Shown here piece after piece: positions 3,777 through 45,606 of a DNA stretch of 54,911 nucleotides (position 1 is the stretch's first letter; every line of letters starts with the position of its first letter). The notes under the pieces were generated by a model. It ran no database searches, had not been told where the DNA came from, and saw only the letters and a list, made by a program, of their open reading frames with translations. The position numbers and the translations under genes are program-made. This stretch comes from Acidobacteriaceae bacterium (GTDB lineage: Bacteria > Acidobacteriota > Terriglobia > Terriglobales > Acidobacteriaceae), in NCBI GenBank assembly GCA_030040425.1, contig JASHTS010000025.1, positions 1 through 54,911 on the forward strand, given 5' to 3'.

Positions 3777-3908
3777 AGTTCAGGATAACGAATGCCCGCC
3801 GCTCTCGCCTCCCGCACGCGCGCGGCAGCCACCGGGCAGCCTGTTCGATCGCACGGGAAGAGCGTTAAGCCATCCTGAAAATGCCGTACGCTGTACATTA
3901 CGAAGGGT

Positions 3909-8124: not shown

Positions 8125-8209
8125 CGCTCTTCCAGTTTACTCGACGGAGGTGCGGCATCCCGGCAATTGAACCCGGGTGAAAGCCACGCATTCTGCTAGG
8201 CTTATTCCC

Positions 8210-11937: not shown

Positions 11938-12089
11938 GCGCACCTCCCGCTCCTATGTAGAAGATGCGGCAAGCCCGGCATCCGTCTCACTCTCGCTGTT
12001 GCCGAGTCTCTGACCGGCTCGTCTGCCCCAGCCGCCGACTTGTCAACGCGCTGACTCGTTAACTCGCAGCCTTGCTGTAGCATCCAGCT

Positions 12090-15945: not shown

Positions 15946-16204
15946 CCACTTTCGAGGCTACCATTCGCGCACTGCCCGGTTCGGTACCGGAAGAGTCATC
16001 CCCGCAACGAAGAATTCATTTGACGCTGGCGCGATTCCCGCACAATAATTCGTGCAACATTTGCCGCGTGATCCAGGGGGAACGGGAACGGGCGCCTAGC
16101 CCGATGGTTGACGTCGCGGCGGATTGTGCGCGAGGACGTGCGCAGGGTGGGCGAGGACCTCGGTCCTTCTTCGCTGGAGAGTCACCGTTTACGATTGACG
16201 TACT

Positions 16205-21451: not shown

Positions 21452-21694
21452 CTACTTGCCGCCTTTCGCGTTCTTCTCGATGTAATCGATCGCGTCCTTC
21501 ACCGTCTTGATTTTTTCGGCATCTTCGTCGGGAATCTCCAGATCGAATGCCTCCTCGAACTGCATCACCAGCTCGACCACGTCGAGCGAATCGGCGCCCA
21601 GGTCCTCCTGAAAACTGGCGCCGGGAGTCACCTCGGCTTCGTCCACCTGCAGTTGCTCGACAATGATCGTCTTCACCTTTTCTTCAACGGCCAT
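21452..21694 (-). CDS. acpP: Acyl carrier protein
   Basis: An 80-residue acidic carrier protein. The phosphopantetheine attachment serine is S36 in [12 protein letters not shown], and the helix pattern and length are standard. GAGGAG lies 7-8 nt before the ATG. It is the first gene of the acpP-fabF unit and is divergent from rmuC over 333 bp. Confidence 0.97.
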
Positions 21695-22027: not shown

Positions 22028-23551
22028 ATGCTTAGCTTCGATGTCACCGTTGTCGCACTCCTCGTCGGGTGCCTGGTCGGAGTTGTGCTTGGTTTGCTGG
22101 GAACCCATTCGATGGCCAAAAGAGAGAGAGCCAATCTTGAGCACAGCAAAGAGCAGCTCTCCACGGCGCTCAATGCGGCGGGCGATTCGCTGAAAAAAGC
22201 GCAGGCGCAGCTGGATGAACGCGCCGGCTTTGAAGCGTTGGCCGGGGAGCGGCAGAAGACCATTGAACGTTTCAACGTGGAGAAATCGGAGCTCCGCGAC
22301 GAGCTGCGGGCAAAGACGGAAGCCGAGAGCGCGGGCCAGGCGCGCATCCGCGAGCTTGAGACCGAATTGAAAAACGAGCGCGACGGCATGGCCGAGAAGG
22401 TCGCGCTTCTTGAGCAGGCAAAGAAGACGCTTGCCGACCAGTTCCAGGCGCTGGCCGGCGAGATCCTCGAGCAAAAGACCAAGACCTTCTCCGAGGCGAA
22501 CGAGAAGGAGATGGGCGCCCTGCTGACGCCTTTGCGGGAGCAACTGGGCGATTTCCGCAAAAAAGTGGAGGAGGCGCAATCGGATTCGAAGACCGGCGTC
22601 ACCGAGCTCAAAGCGCTGATCGGCACGCTGGGCACGCTCAACCAGGCACTCACGGAGGAGGCTCACAATCTGGCCACGGCCCTGCGGCGCGATACCAAGG
22701 CGCAGGGCAACTGGGGTGAGACCATCCTGCGCAATATTCTCGACAAGTCGGGCCTGGAAGAAGGCGTGCATTACAGCTTCCAGCAGAGTTTTCTGGAGCT
22801 GGACAGCGAAGGCGAAGAAGCGCAGCGCCGCCAGACCGACGTGGTGGTGAAGCTGCCGGGCGGCCGGCACCTGATCATCGATTCCAAGGTTTCGCTCAAC
22901 GCCTACAATGACTGCGTCAACGCCGAAGATGAGAAGAGCCGCGCCGAGGCCACCAAGAGGCACCTGGCCAGCGTCCGCAATCATTTCACGGAGCTGGCCG
23001 GCCGCAACTACCACGCCCTGGCCGGAATCGACTCACCCGATTTCGTGGTGATGTTCGTGCCCATTGAGCCGGCGTTTCTCATGGCCCTGCAGAACGATGA
23101 GACGCTCTGGCACGACGCCTACGCGAAGGGCGTGCTGCTCTCCGGTCCAACGACGGTGCTCTTCGTCATCCGCATTGTGGAAGATCTCTGGCGCCAGGAG
23201 AAGCAGGCCGAGAGCGTCGACAAGGTGATGAAGCGCGGCGCCGAGTTGTACGACAAATTTGTCGGCTTCGCCACCAATCTGGGGCAGGTGGGCGCGGCGC
23301 TCATGAATGCGCGCAAAGCGTACGACCTTGCGCACCGGCAGCTCGCCACGGGACCGGGAAACCTGGTGAAGCAGGTAGAGATGCTGCGCAAGCTGGGCGT
23401 GAAGCCGCGCAAGCAACTCTCGGCCAAATTGCTGGAGGGTCGAGAGGCGGAAGCAGCGGAGGTGGAATCGGGCGATTTCGAGTTTGGCGACCTCGAGGCG
23501 CCCGGGCTGGCGCTGGCCGCGGAAGGCGTGGAGAACGGCGAAGCGCATTAA
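22028..23551 (+). CDS. rmuC: DNA recombination protein RmuC
   Basis: A 507-residue protein. An N-terminal membrane helix (residues 5-25) is followed by a long coiled coil (about 30-190) and the RmuC nuclease-like core: GNWGETILRNILDKSGLEEG, RQTDVVVKLPGGRHLIIDSK, SPDFVVMFVPIEPAFLMAL and GVLLSGPTTVLFVIRIVEDLW. RmuC limits rearrangement at inverted repeats in E. coli. I start at ATG 22028, which has GAGGAAG about 6 nt upstream; the frame is open from GTG 21980. The C-terminal 40 residues are acidic and poorly conserved in type. Confidence 0.93.
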   Translation: MLSFDVTVVALLVGCLVGVVLGLLGTHSMAKRERANLEHSKEQLSTALNAAGDSLKKAQAQLDERAGFEALAGERQKTIERFNVEKSELRDELRAKTEAESAGQARIRELETELKNERDGMAEKVALLEQAKKTLADQFQALAGEILEQKTKTFSEANEKEMGALLTPLREQLGDFRKKVEEAQSDSKTGVTELKALIGTLGTLNQALTEEAHNLATALRRDTKAQGNWGETILRNILDKSGLEEGVHYSFQQSFLELDSEGEEAQRRQTDVVVKLPGGRHLIIDSKVSLNAYNDCVNAEDEKSRAEATKRHLASVRNHFTELAGRNYHALAGIDSPDFVVMFVPIEPAFLMALQNDETLWHDAYAKGVLLSGPTTVLFVIRIVEDLWRQEKQAESVDKVMKRGAELYDKFVGFATNLGQVGAALMNARKAYDLAHRQLATGPGNLVKQVEMLRKLGVKPRKQLSAKLLEGREAEAAEVESGDFEFGDLEAPGLALAAEGVENGEAH

Positions 23552-24917: not shown

Positions 24918-25505
24918 CTAGCTCGTTGACCCATCTTCTTTCGTTTCGGCAAACGCCGCGCGCAGCCGCTTCCAGGTGGTGTCCAGTTCTTCGGGGAGCA
25001 CGCGCGCTTCGGCCACGGTGGTCATAAAACTGGTATCGCCCACCCAGCGCGGCATGGCATGCAGGTGAACGTGGCCGGCCACGCCCGCACCCGCGGCCTG
25101 GCCCACATTCATGCCGAAGTTGAAACCGTGCGGCGAGTAGACGCGGTCGAGGACCCGCTCGGTGCGCTGCGCCAGATCGATCAGCTCGTGCGCCGTCTCC
25201 GCGGGCAGGAGGGCGAGCCGGTCGATGTGCGCGTAGGGCATGGCCATGACGTGGCCGGAGGTGTACGGGAAGGCGTTCAGGCAGATGAAGCAACGCCCGG
25301 CGCGCAGAACAATGCCTCCGGCGCTTTCGGCCGCCTCGCGATCCATCCCGGCCTCGATGGCGTGATCGACCGAGGCGATGAGATTGCAGAAGACGCAGCC
25401 TTTGTCGCCCGGCCACGCATTGAGCGCCGCGGGAACGCCGGGACGCACCGCCGACTCCGCCATGGTGACGTAGTTATAGCGCCAGGGAGTCCAGAAGTGT
25501 TCCAT
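24918..25505 (-). CDS. HIT family nucleotide hydrolase or transferase
   Basis: A 195-residue histidine-triad protein. The catalytic motif GHVHLHAMPR contains H145, H147 and H149, and CVFC (C37, C40) together with a downstream His probably binds zinc. The length and the N-terminal YNYVT...CVFC arrangement resemble AP4A phosphorylase-like HIT proteins of bacteria. The substrate is likely a dinucleoside polyphosphate or an AMP conjugate, by family. TATACT lies about 65 nt upstream on the same strand. It is divergent from rpsA. Confidence 0.9.
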   Translation of the reverse strand: MEHFWTPWRYNYVTMAESAVRPGVPAALNAWPGDKGCVFCNLIASVDHAIEAGMDREAAESAGGIVLRAGRCFICLNAFPYTSGHVMAMPYAHIDRLALLPAETAHELIDLAQRTERVLDRVYSPHGFNFGMNVGQAAGAGVAGHVHLHAMPRWVGDTSFMTTVAEARVLPEELDTTWKRLRAAFAETKEDGSTS

Positions 25506-30330: not shown

Positions 30331-30401
30331 TGTGCGCAAGCCTAGCACAGGCACGAGAGACGACTCGGGCTTTGCCCGGGCAAGAGCGCGGTGTGCGCCC
30401 C

Positions 30402-30902: not shown

Positions 30903-32111
30903 TCAATCTGTCTGCATCTGCCGGAGGACCACCACGATGCCCAGCGCGCAGAGCACGCTGGCCAGCGCGAAGAGAAACACGCTACGGTAGCTGAACCAGC
31001 CGATGACGGCGCCGGCGATGGGCCCGACCAGGAAAAAGGAGACATCGGCGAAGGCAGTATAGACGCCCAGGGCGGTGCCGCGGCTGATCTCCGGCACGCG
31101 CTTGACCGCCTCGACGCCGATGGCGGGAAAGACCAGCGAAAAGCCGAAGCCGCCCAGCGAGGCGCCGGCCAGGGCAATCCAGGGCGAGTTCCCGCTCCAC
31201 AACAGAACCAGCCCGACGGACTCGACCAGCAGGCAAGCCATGGCCACCGGGAATCCACCGAAACGGTTGACGGTCTGGATGAAGAACAGCCGCGCCAGGA
31301 TGAACGCGACCCCGAACGCCGTGAGGCACAGCGCCGCGCCGTTCCAGTGCCGGCTGAAGTAGTAAAGAGTGATGAAGGTGGCCAGCACGCTATAACAGAC
31401 GCCGCCGAGCGCAAGTCCCATGCCGTGCGGGGCGACTCGGCCCAGCACGTGGCGGAAAGGCAGGTGCTCGCCTTCGATGACCGGAACCGGCTGCTTGCGG
31501 CACGCCATGACTATGCTGAAGACACCGAGCAGGATGGTGAAGATGCCCAGCGAGCTCAGGCCCCATTGCTGGTCCATCACCACGCCCAGCGGCGCGGCCA
31601 CGGCCATGGCGCCGTAAGTGCAGACGCCGTTGTAGGAGATAACTTTGGCCATCGCTGCCTGTCCCGTACTGGTGATGCCCCACAGCGTGGCCCCGGTTGA
31701 GCCCAGGCTTTCCCCCACGCCCAGCACCAGCCGGCTCAGAATCAAAGCCCAGAAACTGAGCCAGTGAATGTGGAGCGAAAAAAGCAGCGCCGCGGCGAGA
31801 AGAAGCACGCCGCTCGCCGTGCAGGCGCCCATTCCCCAGATTACGGAGATCTTTGCTCCCTGCCGGTCGCTGATGCGTCCCGCCCAGGGACGGCTGGCCA
31901 GTGTGGCGATGTACTGGATGCTGATGACCAGGCCGGCGAGGATGGCGCTGTAGCCCATGCGCAGGTTCACGTAGGGCGGCAGCACGGCCAGGGGTAAACC
32001 GATGGAAAGATAGCAGATGAACGTGAAATAGACGTAGCCGAGAATCTGCCGCACGCCGCTCTTGGGAGCTACACGCGTGGCCGTAACCATGCTGGCGGAA
32101 GCTGTAGACAT
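30903..32111 (-). CDS. Major facilitator superfamily transporter (YfcJ/YhhS-like)
   Basis: A 402-residue protein with twelve membrane helices. The family loop motif is present between helices 2 and 3 (ASRPWAGRISDRQGAKIS). LSRLVLGVGESLGSTGATLW and the conserved ALGVYTAFADVSFFLVGP resemble the YfcJ/YhhS group of predicted sugar or drug efflux pumps. The substrate is unknown. TACAAT (32130-32135) lies 18 nt upstream of the ATG. It ends 54 bp before the cupin gene on the same strand. Confidence 0.83.
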   Translation of the reverse strand: MSTASASMVTATRVAPKSGVRQILGYVYFTFICYLSIGLPLAVLPPYVNLRMGYSAILAGLVISIQYIATLASRPWAGRISDRQGAKISVIWGMGACTASGVLLLAAALLFSLHIHWLSFWALILSRLVLGVGESLGSTGATLWGITSTGQAAMAKVISYNGVCTYGAMAVAAPLGVVMDQQWGLSSLGIFTILLGVFSIVMACRKQPVPVIEGEHLPFRHVLGRVAPHGMGLALGGVCYSVLATFITLYYFSRHWNGAALCLTAFGVAFILARLFFIQTVNRFGGFPVAMACLLVESVGLVLLWSGNSPWIALAGASLGGFGFSLVFPAIGVEAVKRVPEISRGTALGVYTAFADVSFFLVGPIAGAVIGWFSYRSVFLFALASVLCALGIVVVLRQMQTD

Positions 32112-32213: not shown

Positions 32214-32633
32214 TCATTCCACTTGGGTTCCCTGGTGATATACGATTCGCCATCCTTCCGCCATCCGCTCCCAGATCGTCATCCGGCGGGTGGTGCGCGG
32301 GCGACCGTTTTGGGGCTTCTGCACCAGGGTATAGGTGAGCAGAAAGAACTCCGCGCCGAGACGGCGGCACCAGAAATCGCGCGCTTCCCACAGGTCGTCC
32401 TGCCAACCCGTCCCGCTAGAACGCCGTTCGAGTTCGTCCAGGACAAACGCCCGGCCGTACCGGCGCCCGGAGGCGCCCGTCTCCCAGAAGTCGGGAGCCG
32501 TCATACGCTCGAAATCCGCTCGCGTAGCGGCGTGCTCCGGCCGGTGAAAGATGGGCTCTCGATCCATCAACTCGCGGAGGATCTCGGCGAGCTCCGGCGC
32601 GGTCTCGAGCTGCGGCTCCTGTTGGCTGTGCAT
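32214..32633 (-). CDS. DUF4440 / NTF2-like protein
   Basis: A 139-residue protein of the NTF2-like fold. It starts with an N-terminal helix (ELAEILRELMDREPIFH); then come ADFERMTAPDFWETGASGRRYGRA, the strand FFLLTYTLVQ and the closing strands RRMTIWERMAEGWRIVYHQGTQVE. Members bind small ligands or act as auxiliary domains; no catalytic site is evident. TATGAT (32640-32645) ends 6 nt before the ATG. It is divergent from mtaB with only 37 bp between the start codons. Confidence 0.78.
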   Translation of the reverse strand: MHSQQEPQLETAPELAEILRELMDREPIFHRPEHAATRADFERMTAPDFWETGASGRRYGRAFVLDELERRSSGTGWQDDLWEARDFWCRRLGAEFFLLTYTLVQKPQNGRPRTTRRMTIWERMAEGWRIVYHQGTQVE

Positions 32634-32639
32634 GGCGCC

Positions 32640-32663
32640 ATCATACTTTGCAACCGCTACACT
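32640..32663. promoter_or_regulatory. Back-to-back -10 elements for DUF4440 gene and mtaB
   Basis: TATGAT on the minus strand (32640-32645) is 6 nt from the DUF4440 start, and GCTACACT on the plus strand (32656-32663) is 7 nt from the mtaB start. The whole gap is 37 bp, so neither mRNA can have a normal leader unless its promoter lies inside the opposite gene. Confidence 0.6.
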
Positions 32664-32670
32664 GAAAGAG

Positions 32671-34152
32671 ATGGCCGGCTTTCACATGGAAAACTTCGGC
32701 TGCCGGGCGGCGCGCGCCGACGGCGAAGCGCTGAGCAGCGCTCTGCTTGCCGCCGGCCACTGCGTGGGGCAGCTCCCTGAAGCCGATGTGGTTGTGGTAA
32801 ACACGTGCAGCGTGACCGCCGAAGCGGACCGCGAGGCGCGCGCCTTCATTCGCCACGCACATCGCAGCAATCCTGAGGCGAAGATCGTGGTCACGGGCTG
32901 CTACGCGCAGCGAGCGCCCGGCGAAGTTGCCGCGCTCGACGGAGTTTCCGCGGTGATCGGCAACAGCCACAAGGCGCTTGCGCCCCGGATCATCGCGAGC
33001 CAGCTTCTCGGGGAGGGAGCCGCGCGCGGCGCCGCAATCCGCGCCTCCGCATCGCCGGAACTTCTCCCCGTCCAGGTGCTGCTGCGGGGCGGCGCGGCGG
33101 TTGATTCGGCGCCGAACCGGTCCGCACCGATCTGGGCCGACGACCGCTTCGCACACTCGTTTATCGAGGAAGCGCAGATAGCGCCCGGCGCACAGACGCG
33201 GCCCAACCTCAAGATCCAGGAGGGATGCGGCAACCGGTGCACGTTCTGCGTCATCCCCCTCACGCGCGGCCCTTCGCGCAGCCTGCCGCGCGCGGCTATT
33301 CTGCGGCAGGTGGAGAGCTTTGTGGCCGCGGGCGGAAACGAACTGGTTCTTTCCGGCATCAATCTCGGCCGCTGGGGTCGCGAGCTGGACAATGCAAGCG
33401 GGCAGCCGCGGTCGACGCTCGCCTCGCTGGTGCGGGCCATTTTCGAAGAGGCGCGACTTCCGCGCCTGCGCCTCAGCTCCATTGAGCCGATGGATTGGGA
33501 CGACGATTTGATCGCACGGATGGCTGAGTTCGGAGGGTCGCGCCTGGCGCGGCACGCGCATCTGCCGCTGCAGTCGGGCTCGGATGCGGTGCTGCGGCGC
33601 ATGCATCGCCGATACCGACCGTGGCACTACGCGGAGAAGGTGAATGCGCTTCTGCGCGCGGCCGGCGAAGACCTGACCCTTGGCGCCGATGTGATGGTGG
33701 GTTTTCCCGGCGAAACCGATGCCGAATTCGAAGAGACGCTGGCCCTGGTGCGGGCGCTGCCTTTCGGCTATCTGCACCTGTTTCCGTTTTCGCCGCGCCC
33801 GGGCACGGCCTTGCATGCAGCGGACCCTGTGGATGCCGTGGCGGTGCGGGAGCGCATGGCGGCGCTCCGTGCGCTCGCCGCGGAAAAAAGCCGCGCCCAT
33901 CGCGCCCGCTTCCTGGGCCGCGCGCTCGATGCCATCACGCTGCACACGTCTGCGGAGTTGACGGAGGACGGCCGCACCTCGGCGCTCACGGAAAACTTTC
34001 TTCCGGTCGAGATCGAGAGCGTGGTGCCTTCGAACCGGCTCCAGCGCATTCTCATCTCGGGATTCACCCCGCGGGGCGCGCTCCAAGGCTGGTGTCAAGA
34101 CTCGTCCCGGGACGGATTCAAGGGCTCATTCCAACCCTGCTTCCAGGGGTAA
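32671..34152 (+). CDS. mtaB: tRNA t6A37 methylthiotransferase MtaB
   Basis: A 493-residue radical SAM methylthiotransferase that converts t6A37 to ms2t6A37 in tRNAs reading ANN codons. The N-terminal domain has C11 (ENFGCRAARADGE), C46 (VVVNTCSVTAEADREAR) and C77 (VTGCYAQ) for the auxiliary cluster. The radical SAM cluster is C186, C190 and C193 (IQEGCGNRCTFCVIPLTRG). LPLQSGSDAVLRRMHRRY and ADVMVGFPGETDAEFEETL are typical of the family. GAAAGAG touches the ATG, and TACACT lies 7 nt upstream, so the mRNA may be leaderless. Confidence 0.92.
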   Translation: MAGFHMENFGCRAARADGEALSSALLAAGHCVGQLPEADVVVVNTCSVTAEADREARAFIRHAHRSNPEAKIVVTGCYAQRAPGEVAALDGVSAVIGNSHKALAPRIIASQLLGEGAARGAAIRASASPELLPVQVLLRGGAAVDSAPNRSAPIWADDRFAHSFIEEAQIAPGAQTRPNLKIQEGCGNRCTFCVIPLTRGPSRSLPRAAILRQVESFVAAGGNELVLSGINLGRWGRELDNASGQPRSTLASLVRAIFEEARLPRLRLSSIEPMDWDDDLIARMAEFGGSRLARHAHLPLQSGSDAVLRRMHRRYRPWHYAEKVNALLRAAGEDLTLGADVMVGFPGETDAEFEETLALVRALPFGYLHLFPFSPRPGTALHAADPVDAVAVRERMAALRALAAEKSRAHRARFLGRALDAITLHTSAELTEDGRTSALTENFLPVEIESVVPSNRLQRILISGFTPRGALQGWCQDSSRDGFKGSFQPCFQG

Positions 34153-34173: not shown

Positions 34174-34201
34174 TTGATCGCAGCCAAGCGAATGCTATAC
34201 T
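34174..34201 (+). promoter_or_regulatory. Candidate promoter of infC
   Basis: TTGATC (34174-34179), a 16 nt spacer and TATACT (34196-34201) lie between mtaB and infC. The predicted leader is about 80 nt and ends in the Shine-Dalgarno GGAGGAAG (34276-34283). Confidence 0.5.
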
Positions 34202-34286
34202 CAGGGTGCGTTCGTGGGACTCGCTGCACCGCCGCACCCCTCTGACAAAGAGAAGCGGCTGCAGCCACAGATCCTGGAGGAAGATC

Positions 34287-34883
34287 ATCGCACTCGATAA
34301 GCGTTCGGCCAAGTCCTTTATCCGCATCAATGACCGGATTCGCGCCCGCGAGGTCCGCGTAATCGACGAAAACGGCGAACAGTTGGGCATCATGCCGCCC
34401 TTTGAAGCCCTGCGAGTTGCGCGCGAGCGCGGCCTGGATCTGGTTGAGGTTTCGCCCACCGCCGTTCCGCCCGTCTGCCGCATCCAGGACTACGGCCGTT
34501 ATCTCTACGAAAAAGAAAAGAGCGAGCGCGCCGCGCGCAAGCGGCAAAAGGTGATCGTGGTCAAGGAGGTCAAGTTCTCCGTGACCGTGGACGAGCACGA
34601 CTACCAGACCAAGAAGAATCAGGCGGTGCGCTTCCTGAACGACGGCGACAAGGTGAAGGCCAGCCTGCGCTTCCGCGGCCGGCAGATGGCCCATCGCGAG
34701 CTCGGTTACAACATCATCAACCGATTGATTCAGGACGTGGGCGACGCCGGCGTGGTGGAGTTCATGCCGCGCATGGAAGGTACGATCCTGCACGCGATCC
34801 TCGCGCCCGCCCGCAAAGACGCATCGAAGCCGAAGTCTCCGCCCCCTCCGCCGCAGCCGCCGGCGCCGCGCCCTTCGGCGTAA
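34287..34883 (+). CDS. infC: Translation initiation factor IF-3, AUC start codon
   Basis: A 198-residue IF-3. Both domains are present: the N-domain (RINDRIRAREVRVIDENGEQ, LDLVEVSPTAVPPVCRIQDY, KVIVVKEVKF) and the C-domain (DYQTKKNQAVRFLNDGDKVK, RFRGRQMAHRELG, MEGTILHAILAP). The C-terminus has a proline-rich tail. No ATG, GTG or TTG fits the family N-terminus. GGAGG (34276-34280) is 6 nt before ATC 34287, and ATC 34284 lies just before it; IF-3 genes are known for rare AUU or AUC starts that allow self-repression. A GTG at 34206 would add 27 unrelated residues. rpmI and rplT, its usual partners, are not adjacent. Confidence 0.9.
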   Translation: MALDKRSAKSFIRINDRIRAREVRVIDENGEQLGIMPPFEALRVARERGLDLVEVSPTAVPPVCRIQDYGRYLYEKEKSERAARKRQKVIVVKEVKFSVTVDEHDYQTKKNQAVRFLNDGDKVKASLRFRGRQMAHRELGYNIINRLIQDVGDAGVVEFMPRMEGTILHAILAPARKDASKPKSPPPPPQPPAPRPSA

Positions 34884-35002
34884 CCGCGCGCAGATCCATT
34901 TGCAACGCAGGCTGCCCGGGCCGGGTCCCGATGGACAACCGGTGGGCAGGTCGCCCGGGATTTCCTGTCGAATCGGGCAGGAAAGCCTTGTATGCTTGCG
35001 GC

Positions 35003-37234: not shown

Positions 37235-37360
37235 CGCGAGAAGTGTTTTCGCGAGCGCAGTGGAGCAGGGCTCGATGCAGCACAGAGAAACGCCGGCGCT
37301 GCTGCCGGACTTCGCGGCGGGCCGGCTCTCCGGCGAGCGTGTGTTACACTCCCATCCGTC

Positions 37361-38971: not shown

Positions 38972-39011
38972 CATGAAATTCGAACCAAGCGTGCGGCGCT
39001 AGAATTAACCC

Positions 39012-41092: not shown

Positions 41093-41519
41093 GGCAGATT
41101 CCTCTCTCCACTTGCATTCTAGTTCGAGGGTTGCGGCATGTGCCGCAAAAGCGAAAAACTCAAGTCTCCGCAGATTCCCTGAAGTAGCCCTGTTGCGGAA
41201 TGGCCGCTGCGCGTATCCGCGCCCAAAACCGCACGGGTTCCGATCGCAGTCCTACGCATCCCGGTGAAGAAAATCGGCTTCCGGAGTTCAGAGCGAAAAA
41301 GCGAAAAACCGGAACGATCCCTCTCAATTCCGCGGCGCAGGGACTTGCGATCCCGCTATAGTTTTAGGGAGGACCCGGCCTCAGGTCAAGGCCCGACGCC
41401 ACAGCCGACGTAACCTCCGGCACGGGATTCCACGGCGCATTTTGAAGCGCGGACGAGGCGCTCGCGCTCCGCCGCCTCCATGACAGCGAGCCGCATTTGC
41501 GGTTACCCTGAGGATTGCA
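41093..41519. other. 427 bp divergent gap, no gene seen
   Basis: AAAAGCGAAAAAC occurs near 41150 and again near 41302. GCTATAGT (41355-41362) is a candidate -10 on the plus strand. TAGAAT for the LysW-like gene lies near 41120 on the minus strand. I see nothing else. Confidence 0.4.
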
Positions 41520-42356
41520 ATGGCTCGAACCGGTTCCAGGTCGATTGTCTTCCCCGATTTCCGCGGCGCCACGCGCTGGCTCATCCTCGTCAATCTTGCT
41601 TCCTATTTTCTGTTCATGCTCCTGAGCCTGGCCTCTTCCGGGCTGGCCGCGCTGCTCATGAGCAAGTTGATGTTCATTCCCGATTCCTTTCTGCACGGAG
41701 AGCTGTGGCAGCCGGTCACGTACAGCTTCATCCATCCTCCCGACGTGCTGCTGGGCACGGTGCTCGAGCTGCTTTCACTCTGGTTCCTGGTTGGATTTCT
41801 GGAAAGCTTTCACGGCGCGAACTGGGTGATGAGCTTATACGCGGTCTCCGTGCTGGGCACGGCCGCGGCGGGGCTGGCCATCTATGCGGGCAGGGGCACG
41901 CTGGGCTACTCGCTGCTGCCCCTGCCGCTTTACGGATGCTTCGGAGGAATCTTCGGGCTGCTCGTGGCCATTGCCGCGCTCTACGGCGATATGCAATTCA
42001 CGCTTTTCCCGTTGCCGATAAGCATCAAGGCCCGCTATATCGCCGTAATCTATCTGCTCGTGGCCCTGGCCCTGCTGTATGGCCAGGAGCGGATGCTTGC
42101 CTTTGCCCAGCTCGGGGGCGCGCTCGGCGGCCTTTTCTGGGCGCGGCTGGCGCCGCGGCAGAGAATCTCCTTCAAGCCCGGCTTTGCGTTCAGCGAGCGA
42201 TGGTACGGGATGCGCAACCGCTACTACCGCTGGAAGCGCCGCCGCGCCGCGCGCAAGTTCGAAGTCTATATGCGCCGCCAGGGGCGCACCGTCAAATTCG
42301 ACGGCCAGGGCCGGCTGATCGACGAAGACCAGGACGACAAGAAGCGCTGGAACTGA
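41520..42356 (+). CDS. Rhomboid-fold membrane protein lacking catalytic residues
   Basis: A 278-residue protein with six membrane helices in rhomboid order. LWQPVTYSFIHP matches the rhomboid loop before helix 2, and LWFLVGFLESFHG matches its continuation. The catalytic sites are changed: G-x-S-G is GCFG (F141 in place of Ser), the helix 6 His is Gln (Q197 in FAQLGGALGG), and the helix 2 H-x3-N is lost. It is therefore probably a rhomboid pseudoprotease. A basic C-terminal tail (RWKRRRAARKFEVYMRRQG) follows. GAGGA lies about 6 nt before the ATG. Confidence 0.78.
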   Translation: MARTGSRSIVFPDFRGATRWLILVNLASYFLFMLLSLASSGLAALLMSKLMFIPDSFLHGELWQPVTYSFIHPPDVLLGTVLELLSLWFLVGFLESFHGANWVMSLYAVSVLGTAAAGLAIYAGRGTLGYSLLPLPLYGCFGGIFGLLVAIAALYGDMQFTLFPLPISIKARYIAVIYLLVALALLYGQERMLAFAQLGGALGGLFWARLAPRQRISFKPGFAFSERWYGMRNRYYRWKRRRAARKFEVYMRRQGRTVKFDGQGRLIDEDQDDKKRWN

Positions 42357-42392: not shown

Positions 42393-42460
42393 TCTGAACA
42401 CGGAGCGAGCCCGGGTGACGCGAGAGCCGGCGCGTCCAATCCGCTACAATCCTTTCTGGC

Positions 42461-45511: not shown

Positions 45512-45606
45512 CTTCATCAGTGTAGTCGGCGGGATGCAGCGCAGGACCGGCGGCGGAGCGATGATGGCGGAACCGAGCGCGGCGCGAACACGTACAATAA
45601 ATTGCA

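Follow-up and report, generated by a model that had tools for sequence, protein, structure and literature searches.

We found that TANNNT hexamers standing a few nucleotides before start codons in an Acidobacteriaceae-type bacterium are very probably −10 boxes that would give rise to mRNAs with leaders of 0 to 4 nt. The finding was made on a 54,911-nt stretch of DNA (hereafter, the window), which is one contig of a 4.56-Mb draft assembly of 312 contigs and 75% completeness. The closest named relatives of its MtaB, among the matches listed, are Acidobacteriaceae and Terracidiphilus MAGs, with about 70% amino-acid identity. We propose that the hexamers would serve as −10 elements of ordinary sigma-70-type promoters that abut the coding sequence. 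The mRNAs would be leaderless because RNA polymerase would start on the first base of the start codon or at most about 4 nt before it, and they would be translated through recognition of the start codon without Shine-Dalgarno (SD) pairing. Other genes, above all those overlapping the upstream gene, would use either an SD sequence or neither signal. The first-pass annotation, made from the letters of the window, had already proposed leaderless mRNAs, and this reading is supported by a positional peak of the hexamer, the rarity of SD sequences beside it, its dependence on gene context and its conservation in orthologs, all established by computation, with which Escherichia coli and Deinococcus deserti as controls agree.

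Gene starts were chosen by a coding-potential model alone, which is blind to upstream signals. This gave 47 genes in the window and 530 in a 740,573-bp sample of the host genome, 483 of them outside the window. TANNNT at a spacer of 5 to 10 nt before the start was then counted against 100 dinucleotide shuffles, with genes less than 80 nt from the end of a sequence piece excluded from every count. The absence of a positional peak in such a comparison with shuffled sequence had been set beforehand as a refutation; in the 740,573 bp sampled from the 4.56-Mb assembly, the peak is present. The hexamer preceded 57 of the 530 genes compared to 14.7 in shuffled sequence (standard deviation 4.0, maximum 26), and 44 of the 483 genes outside the window compared to 13.1 (standard deviation 3.7, maximum 23). 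Contigs that had not been chosen through a hit to the pattern gave 32 of 305 compared to 8.7 (maximum 15). The window itself, with 13 of 47 called genes, was richer than the rest (P = 5 × 10−4), which is expected because the region was picked by eye. The most frequent spacer was 6, with the first T at −12 (20 sites outside the window), while a single site had spacer 5 and the counts dropped beyond 10. Spacer 6 is the position at which the start site of a sigma-70 promoter would fall on the start codon.

The signal was stronger among genes with only one plausible start, of which 18 of 89 carried the hexamer compared to 2.9 in shuffled sequence (maximum 7 in 200 shuffles) and 3 to 9 in offset windows. 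TANNNT also exceeded the shuffled level farther upstream, with 17 to 27 of 483 genes per 6-nt window between 12 and 47 nt before the start, and thus part of the near-start count may represent chance or leadered promoters. The near-start excess over these farther windows amounted to about 4% of called genes. Internal in-frame ATGs showed a low rate of about 1.3 to 1.9%, with 3.0 per 223 genes in the host genome and 5.0 per 264 in a second genome of the same genus (G002). Together, the excess corresponds to 4 to 6% of all called genes, some of which have misplaced starts, and to 14 to 17% of genes with a pinned start. The leaderless share is therefore something like 1 gene in 10 as a middle estimate, with bounds of about 1 in 20 to 1 in 6.

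The same count was made in relatives. A search for loci of named relatives matched at least 593 stretches, of which 79 loci were kept, while ortholog loci of relatives came from whole-genome searches and lean toward close relatives because only up to 30 best matches per search were taken. Repeated mtaB and gatB copies inflated both the pooled hexamer counts and the hexamer profile, and thus any gene that matched mtaB, gatB, or infC in BLASTP was left out of the pooled locus sets (78 genes of 490, 59 of 187, and 31 of 342). The peak was weaker in G002 (21 of 264 genes compared to 9.9 in shuffled sequence, maximum 19; nine at spacer 6). After the removal, family loci gave 13 of 128 compared to 4.5 (maximum 9), and other Acidobacteria loci gave 30 of 311 compared to 11.8 (maximum 20), with 13 at spacer 6. 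Named Acidobacteriaceae loci gave 34 of 412 compared to 13.9 (maximum 26), spread broadly without a sharp peak (7, 9, 5, 5, 5, and 7 at spacers 6 to 11), and the window 36 to 41 nt upstream held 41 TANNNT, more than the 34 near the start. With the same script, 150 kb of E. coli K-12 showed no excess (4 of 128 genes compared to 9.0 shuffled; one-start genes, 3 of 38 compared to 3.0). D. deserti is described as having important leaderless mRNAs (de Groot 2014, cited in PMC9581028), and 200 kb of its plasmid 1 gave 17 of 129 compared to 4.4 (one-start genes, 6 of 20 compared to 0.8), with the same modal spacer of 6 as in our genome.

Within the window, an in-frame start listing of the 47 called genes recovered all 15 hexamers named in the first-pass annotation, each at the spacer claimed for it. 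Eleven of these stand before the called start and four before another in-frame start (3909, 8210, 35003, and 45511). Genes outside that list also carry the hexamer, two at the called start (15945 on the minus strand and 41520) and two at an alternative start (32111 on the minus strand and 46558). On the plus strand, predicted −10 boxes are TACGAT (16190–16195) at spacer 9 before the GTG of aroB (16205), TACACT (32658–32663) at spacer 7 before the ATG of mtaB (32671), TACACT (37345–37350) at spacer 10 before a GH35-like gene (start 37361), and TAGAAT (39000–39005) at spacer 6 before gatB (start 39012). The −10-like boxes on this strand are TACATT (3894–3899) at spacer 9 before the alternative ATG 3909 of a gene annotated earlier as a putative GT-C, TAGCAT (12078–12083) at spacer 6 before a TerC-family gene (start 12090), TACAAT (42445–42450) at spacer 10 before a fabD-like gene (start 42461), and TACAAT (45593–45598) at spacer 8 before a TPM-domain gene (start 45607). 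Further plus-strand hexamers are TAGGCT (8197–8202) at spacer 7 before ATG 8210 of an MFS gene, for which TTG 8231 with an SD-like GGAG is a rival start; TATGCT (34991–34996) at spacer 6 before ATG 35003 of an S9 peptidase gene; and the newly found TACCCT (41504–41509) at spacer 10 before the gene at 41520, where an SD-like AGGA is present as well.

On the minus strand, predicted −10 boxes are TAAACT (8134–8139) at spacer 9 before serS (start 8124) and TATGAT (32640–32645) at spacer 6 before the ATG of a DUF4440 gene (32633). The −10-like boxes are TATCCT (3782–3787) at spacer 5 before a glycosyltransferase-2 (GT2) fusion gene (start 3776), TAGGCT (30339–30344) at spacer 8 before GTG 30330 of a putative metallopeptidase gene, and the newly found TAGCCT (15955–15960) at spacer 9 before a FAD-binding fumarate-reductase–like gene (start 15945). 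The hexamer TACACT (45519–45524) lies at spacer 7 before ATG 45511 of an oligopeptidase B–like gene. As a separate observation, orthologs of the minus-strand gene at 30903–32111 suggest that its start is ATG 32111, which lies 21 nt farther upstream than the start called here and has TAAAGT at spacer 7.

Pfam matches agree with the identities of SerS, 3-dehydroquinate synthase (AroB), GatB, TerC, DUF4440, the MtaB-like protein, MFS, and GH35, and further with the S9 peptidases, the putative metallopeptidase, the GT2 fusion, the acyltransferase (FabD-like), and TPM. The predicted leaderless gene 32214–32633 on the minus strand encodes a DUF4440 protein (PF14534, E = 3.3 × 10−8), and the one at 32671–34152 on the plus strand is mtaB-like (UPF0004 and radical SAM in Pfam). 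The starts of mtaB and serS are pinned, as their Pfam matches begin at residues 4 and 1, respectively. A scan of the window against Rfam at gathering thresholds gave no match.

Most hexamer genes had been claimed to be without an SD sequence, and the counts bear this out. SD 4-mers preceded only 4 of the 57 hexamer genes in the host sample compared to 17.4 expected (P = 1.2 × 10−5), and the two signals occurred together less often than expected in four other sets (P = 2.6 × 10−2, 5.6 × 10−5, 3.2 × 10−2, and 1.7 × 10−3). The separation has exceptions: an SD 4-mer was scored in 12 of 44 family orthologs of mtaB, in some cases because GGAG follows the box, and in 6 of 28 orthologs from the genus. 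The genes acpP and rmuC had been named as SD-bearing, and the window copies of both indeed carry an SD; before the gene called acpP (21452–21694), GAGGAG is kept in all seven listed orthologs.

The rarity of the hexamer alongside SD, and its placement where a ribosome-binding site would lie, could also mean that it is an AT-rich element bound by the ribosome or by S1 in a leadered mRNA, rather than part of a promoter. We consider this very improbable, and gene context speaks against it. In five pooled sets with repeated genes removed, the hexamer preceded 1 of 123 genes that overlap the upstream gene compared to 76 of 569 divergent genes (P = 4 × 10−6), and this single case is no more than the low rate seen in coding sequence alone. 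The SD sequence showed the reverse, being commonest in overlapping genes (54 of 123 compared to 170 of 569 divergent genes, P = 0.004). We read the pattern as promoter-like, since the hexamer is all but missing from genes that need a start of translation only. The remaining same-strand classes were mixed, with 14 of 120 genes at 0 to 30 nt behind the upstream gene, 33 of 226 at 31 to 100 nt, and 27 of 530 beyond 100 nt. The first of these frequencies matches that of divergent genes, as a translational element would predict.

The letters of the hexamer, which are those of a −10 box, likewise argue against a purely translational element. The fifth base was A or C in 100 of 118 sites compared to 272 of 437 control TANNNT sites (P = 2 × 10−6). 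The fourth base did not differ significantly from the control TANNNT sites (A in 42% compared to 33%, P = 0.10), the share of A at this position having fallen from 59 to 42% once repeated genes were removed. Five-of-six matches to a TTGACA-like −35 element were found at 6 of the 118 sites compared to 1.6 expected, while the other match classes stayed near the shuffled level, and TGn, as in an extended −10, was present at 18 of 118 sites.

Next, we evaluated conservation in orthologs. Six of the 15 named genes (mtaB, gatB, serS, aroB, fabD, and DUF4440) were counted, with a hexamer at spacer 5 to 10 before the aligned start as the criterion; counts for gatB, serS, aroB, and fabD leave out the own genome, and three mtaB, two fabD, and two aroB rows were dropped. 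The box was kept in 34 of 44 family-type orthologs of mtaB, in 18 of 32 more distant ones and in 24 of 28 from the genus, as well as in 22 of 29 relatives for gatB, 21 of 29 for serS, and 19 of 27 for aroB. Equally wide windows farther upstream held 0 to 4 boxes per gene, and shuffled sequences averaged 1.1 to 3.7, the own copy being included in these figures. The fabD box was found in only 2 of 27 relatives and is thus not conserved outside close relatives. When aligned on the hexamer, the flanks showed only chance identity (0.26 to 0.28), while the free positions of the hexamer are alike in a gene-specific manner. All 34 box-bearing family orthologs of mtaB have TANACT, the gatB boxes (n = 26) have TANAAT in 17 and TANACT in 8 cases, and the fifth base of the aroB boxes is A in 20 of 20. 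Inspection by eye of the GH35-like gene showed TANACT in all eight listed orthologs, seven at spacer 10 and one at spacer 9.

Alternatively, the hexamers might be normal −10 elements of leadered promoters, with the true start codon lying farther downstream. This holds for infC, in which TATACT (34196–34201) is followed by GGAGG and an apparent AUC start at 34284 or 34287. It also appears to hold for the gene at 24918–25505, for which 12 of 13 listed orthologs have, by eye, a TATACT 12 to 35 nt ahead of the aligned start. As a general explanation, however, it is highly improbable. In both mtaB and serS, the called start coincides with the beginning of the conserved protein, and the hexamer is more frequent among genes with only one plausible start than in the whole sample (18 of 89 compared to 57 of 530).

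The infC gene, encoding IF3, was considered as a leaderless case and rejected because its apparent GGAGG-led AUC start lies well downstream of TATACT. In the window (34196–34290), its apparent start is the rare AUC and not GTG 34206, which cautions against taking every box 4 nt ahead of a possible GTG as the mark of a leaderless gene. Among 29 relatives, the first candidate placed behind an SD was AUC in 24, AUA in 2, AUG in 1 (followed by AUC), and GTG in 2 (followed by AUU). About 80 nt separate TATACT from the start, and several relatives show hairpin-like leader sequence by eye. A rare start codon of infC is known from enterics. Two other genes have the layout of a short leader. In orthologs of the minus-strand gene at 24918–25505, TATACT mostly lies 20 to 22 nt before the start, as judged by eye, while the window copy has only CACACT. 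Upstream of the start of rmuC (22028–23551), GGCGTACATTAGGCG is kept in all three listed orthologs, as in an ordinary short-leader promoter; the window copy has TACATT 19 nt before the start, followed by an SD, and this TACATT is kept in the same three of three.

The weakest alternative, that free choice of starts lets TANNNT be found by chance before many genes, draws on the 4 of 15 cases with a re-chosen start, on the richness of the window compared to the rest of the sample and on the unconserved fabD box, yet it is contradicted for the class as a whole by the signal-blind calls outside the window and by the box being kept in four of five genes across the family, although individual genes could still be chance, and we regard it as extremely improbable.

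The first-pass annotation had singled out the gap between the DUF4440 gene and mtaB for its back-to-back hexamers. Both boxes are present (32640–32645 on the minus and 32658–32663 on the plus strand), 12 bp apart, with predicted transcription start sites about 37 to 38 bp apart; the arrangement itself, however, is not conserved in relatives. DUF4440 was absent from all 29 mtaB loci of the genus, as far as their short flanks extend (3.2 to 4.5 kb for the six lengths given), and in one relative within the genus (G004) about 140 kb of a single contig separates the two genes. DUF4440 relatives gave a mixed picture, with a hexamer at the nearest start in 7 of 17 (two more were dropped); four others had, by eye, TATACT, TATGCT, or TATCCT six bases ahead of an in-frame ATG that lies a little farther upstream.

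Since DUF4440 was not found at the mtaB loci fetched from relatives, the back-to-back layout of this gap seems to have arisen from two independent leaderless promoters. A conserved bidirectional promoter was considered and rejected because DUF4440 is not beside mtaB in the relatives fetched, and because few divergent pairs carry both hexamers, about as many as expected. There were 5 such pairs among 86 in the host sample compared to 2.3 expected, and 0 of 52, 3 of 92, 1 of 30, and 2 of 61 in four other sets compared to 0.7, 2.1, 1.9, and 2.4. Bidirectional promoters of E. coli, according to the part of the source available to us, have divergent start sites most often 18 bp apart, and also 10 or 23 bp (PMC12825309). 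The gap resembles them in having two divergent starts near each other but differs in the predicted distance of about 37 to 38 bp. Separately, a Bryobacterales MAG has divergent called genes across an 18-bp gap (locus L057, 12279–12298) with TANNNT at spacer 5 to 10 on both sides.

To see the spread across the phylum, we compared TANACT before ATG at spacer 6 with the same pattern at spacer 15 in 297 Acidobacteriota genomes. The spacer-15 control took the place of a reversed pattern, which was dropped as apparently sensitive to composition, its count exceeding the forward one in a number of genomes. Sums were made for ten families chosen by eye, covering 138 of the 297 genomes. Because non-start ATGs are included and only one hexamer subset was counted, these figures indicate direction and not size. 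In the family of the host (f1), spacer 6 gave 1347 and spacer 15 gave 766, with spacer 6 higher in 28 of 31 genomes. A strong excess was found in f24 (841 compared to 169), f48 (254 compared to 50), and f25 (254 compared to 55), and spacer 6 also exceeded spacer 15 in f46 (110 compared to 30), f47 (126 compared to 31), and f6 (67 compared to 23). Little difference was observed in f22 (527 compared to 507), f29 (382 compared to 338), and f43 (179 compared to 149).

These data would fit a broader model, for and against which we see the case as evenly balanced. Across the Acidobacteriaceae-type family, leaderless expression may be fixed in core genes (serS, gatB, mtaB, and aroB) as a gene-specific trait, each gene having its own −10 variant at a sliding distance of about 6 to 11 nt. 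The trait would be stronger in f24, f48, and f25 and would have been lost, or never present, in f22, f29, and f43. Under such a model, the sliding distance implies that the start codon itself would be the anchor.

The leaderless layout is of a known kind that had already been predicted in the phylum; it is well supported here, and its mechanism is not new. The first-pass annotation had cited Actinobacteria and Deinococcus-Thermus as groups with leaderless genes. The prediction reaches beyond these two phyla, as TA-led leaderless genes were predicted in three of three Acidobacteria genomes (Zheng 2011, BMC Genomics 12:361; PMC3160421), with an average share of 13.3% (9.7 to 19.4) given in the portion of that paper accessible to us. 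Our hexamers resemble these TA-led genes in that the first T of TANNNT lies about 12 bp before the start, corresponding to spacer 6, and in standing apart from SD-led genes. In contrast to the phylum averages reported there, as far as that text was available, the present analysis concerns an uncultured Acidobacteriaceae-type genome and adds ortholog footprints, a gene-context test, and a family survey. The accessible part of a study on Deinococcus-Thermus (PMC12340547) describes the same layout of a −10 box few base pairs before the open reading frame, a leaderless mRNA, and an optional −35 element. It differs in offering reporter and transcription-level data, where ours are computed from sequence, and in a share of about 30% of open reading frames compared to about 10% here, in a different phylum. 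A literature search found no transcript mapping in Acidobacteriota, with subscription journals mostly outside its reach.

Two aspects appear to be new, as neither was found in the literature searched, part of which was seen only in excerpt: the box is kept across the family in a gene-specific form, and it is spread unevenly among families. In practical terms, the −10 box could improve the annotation of start codons in Acidobacteriota. The combination of leaderless starts widely kept in core genes with an uneven spread among families would provide a comparative setting in which to study why such starts are gained or kept. If the trait is indeed fixed and gene specific, the phylum would be a natural test bed for the gain and loss of leaderless translation.
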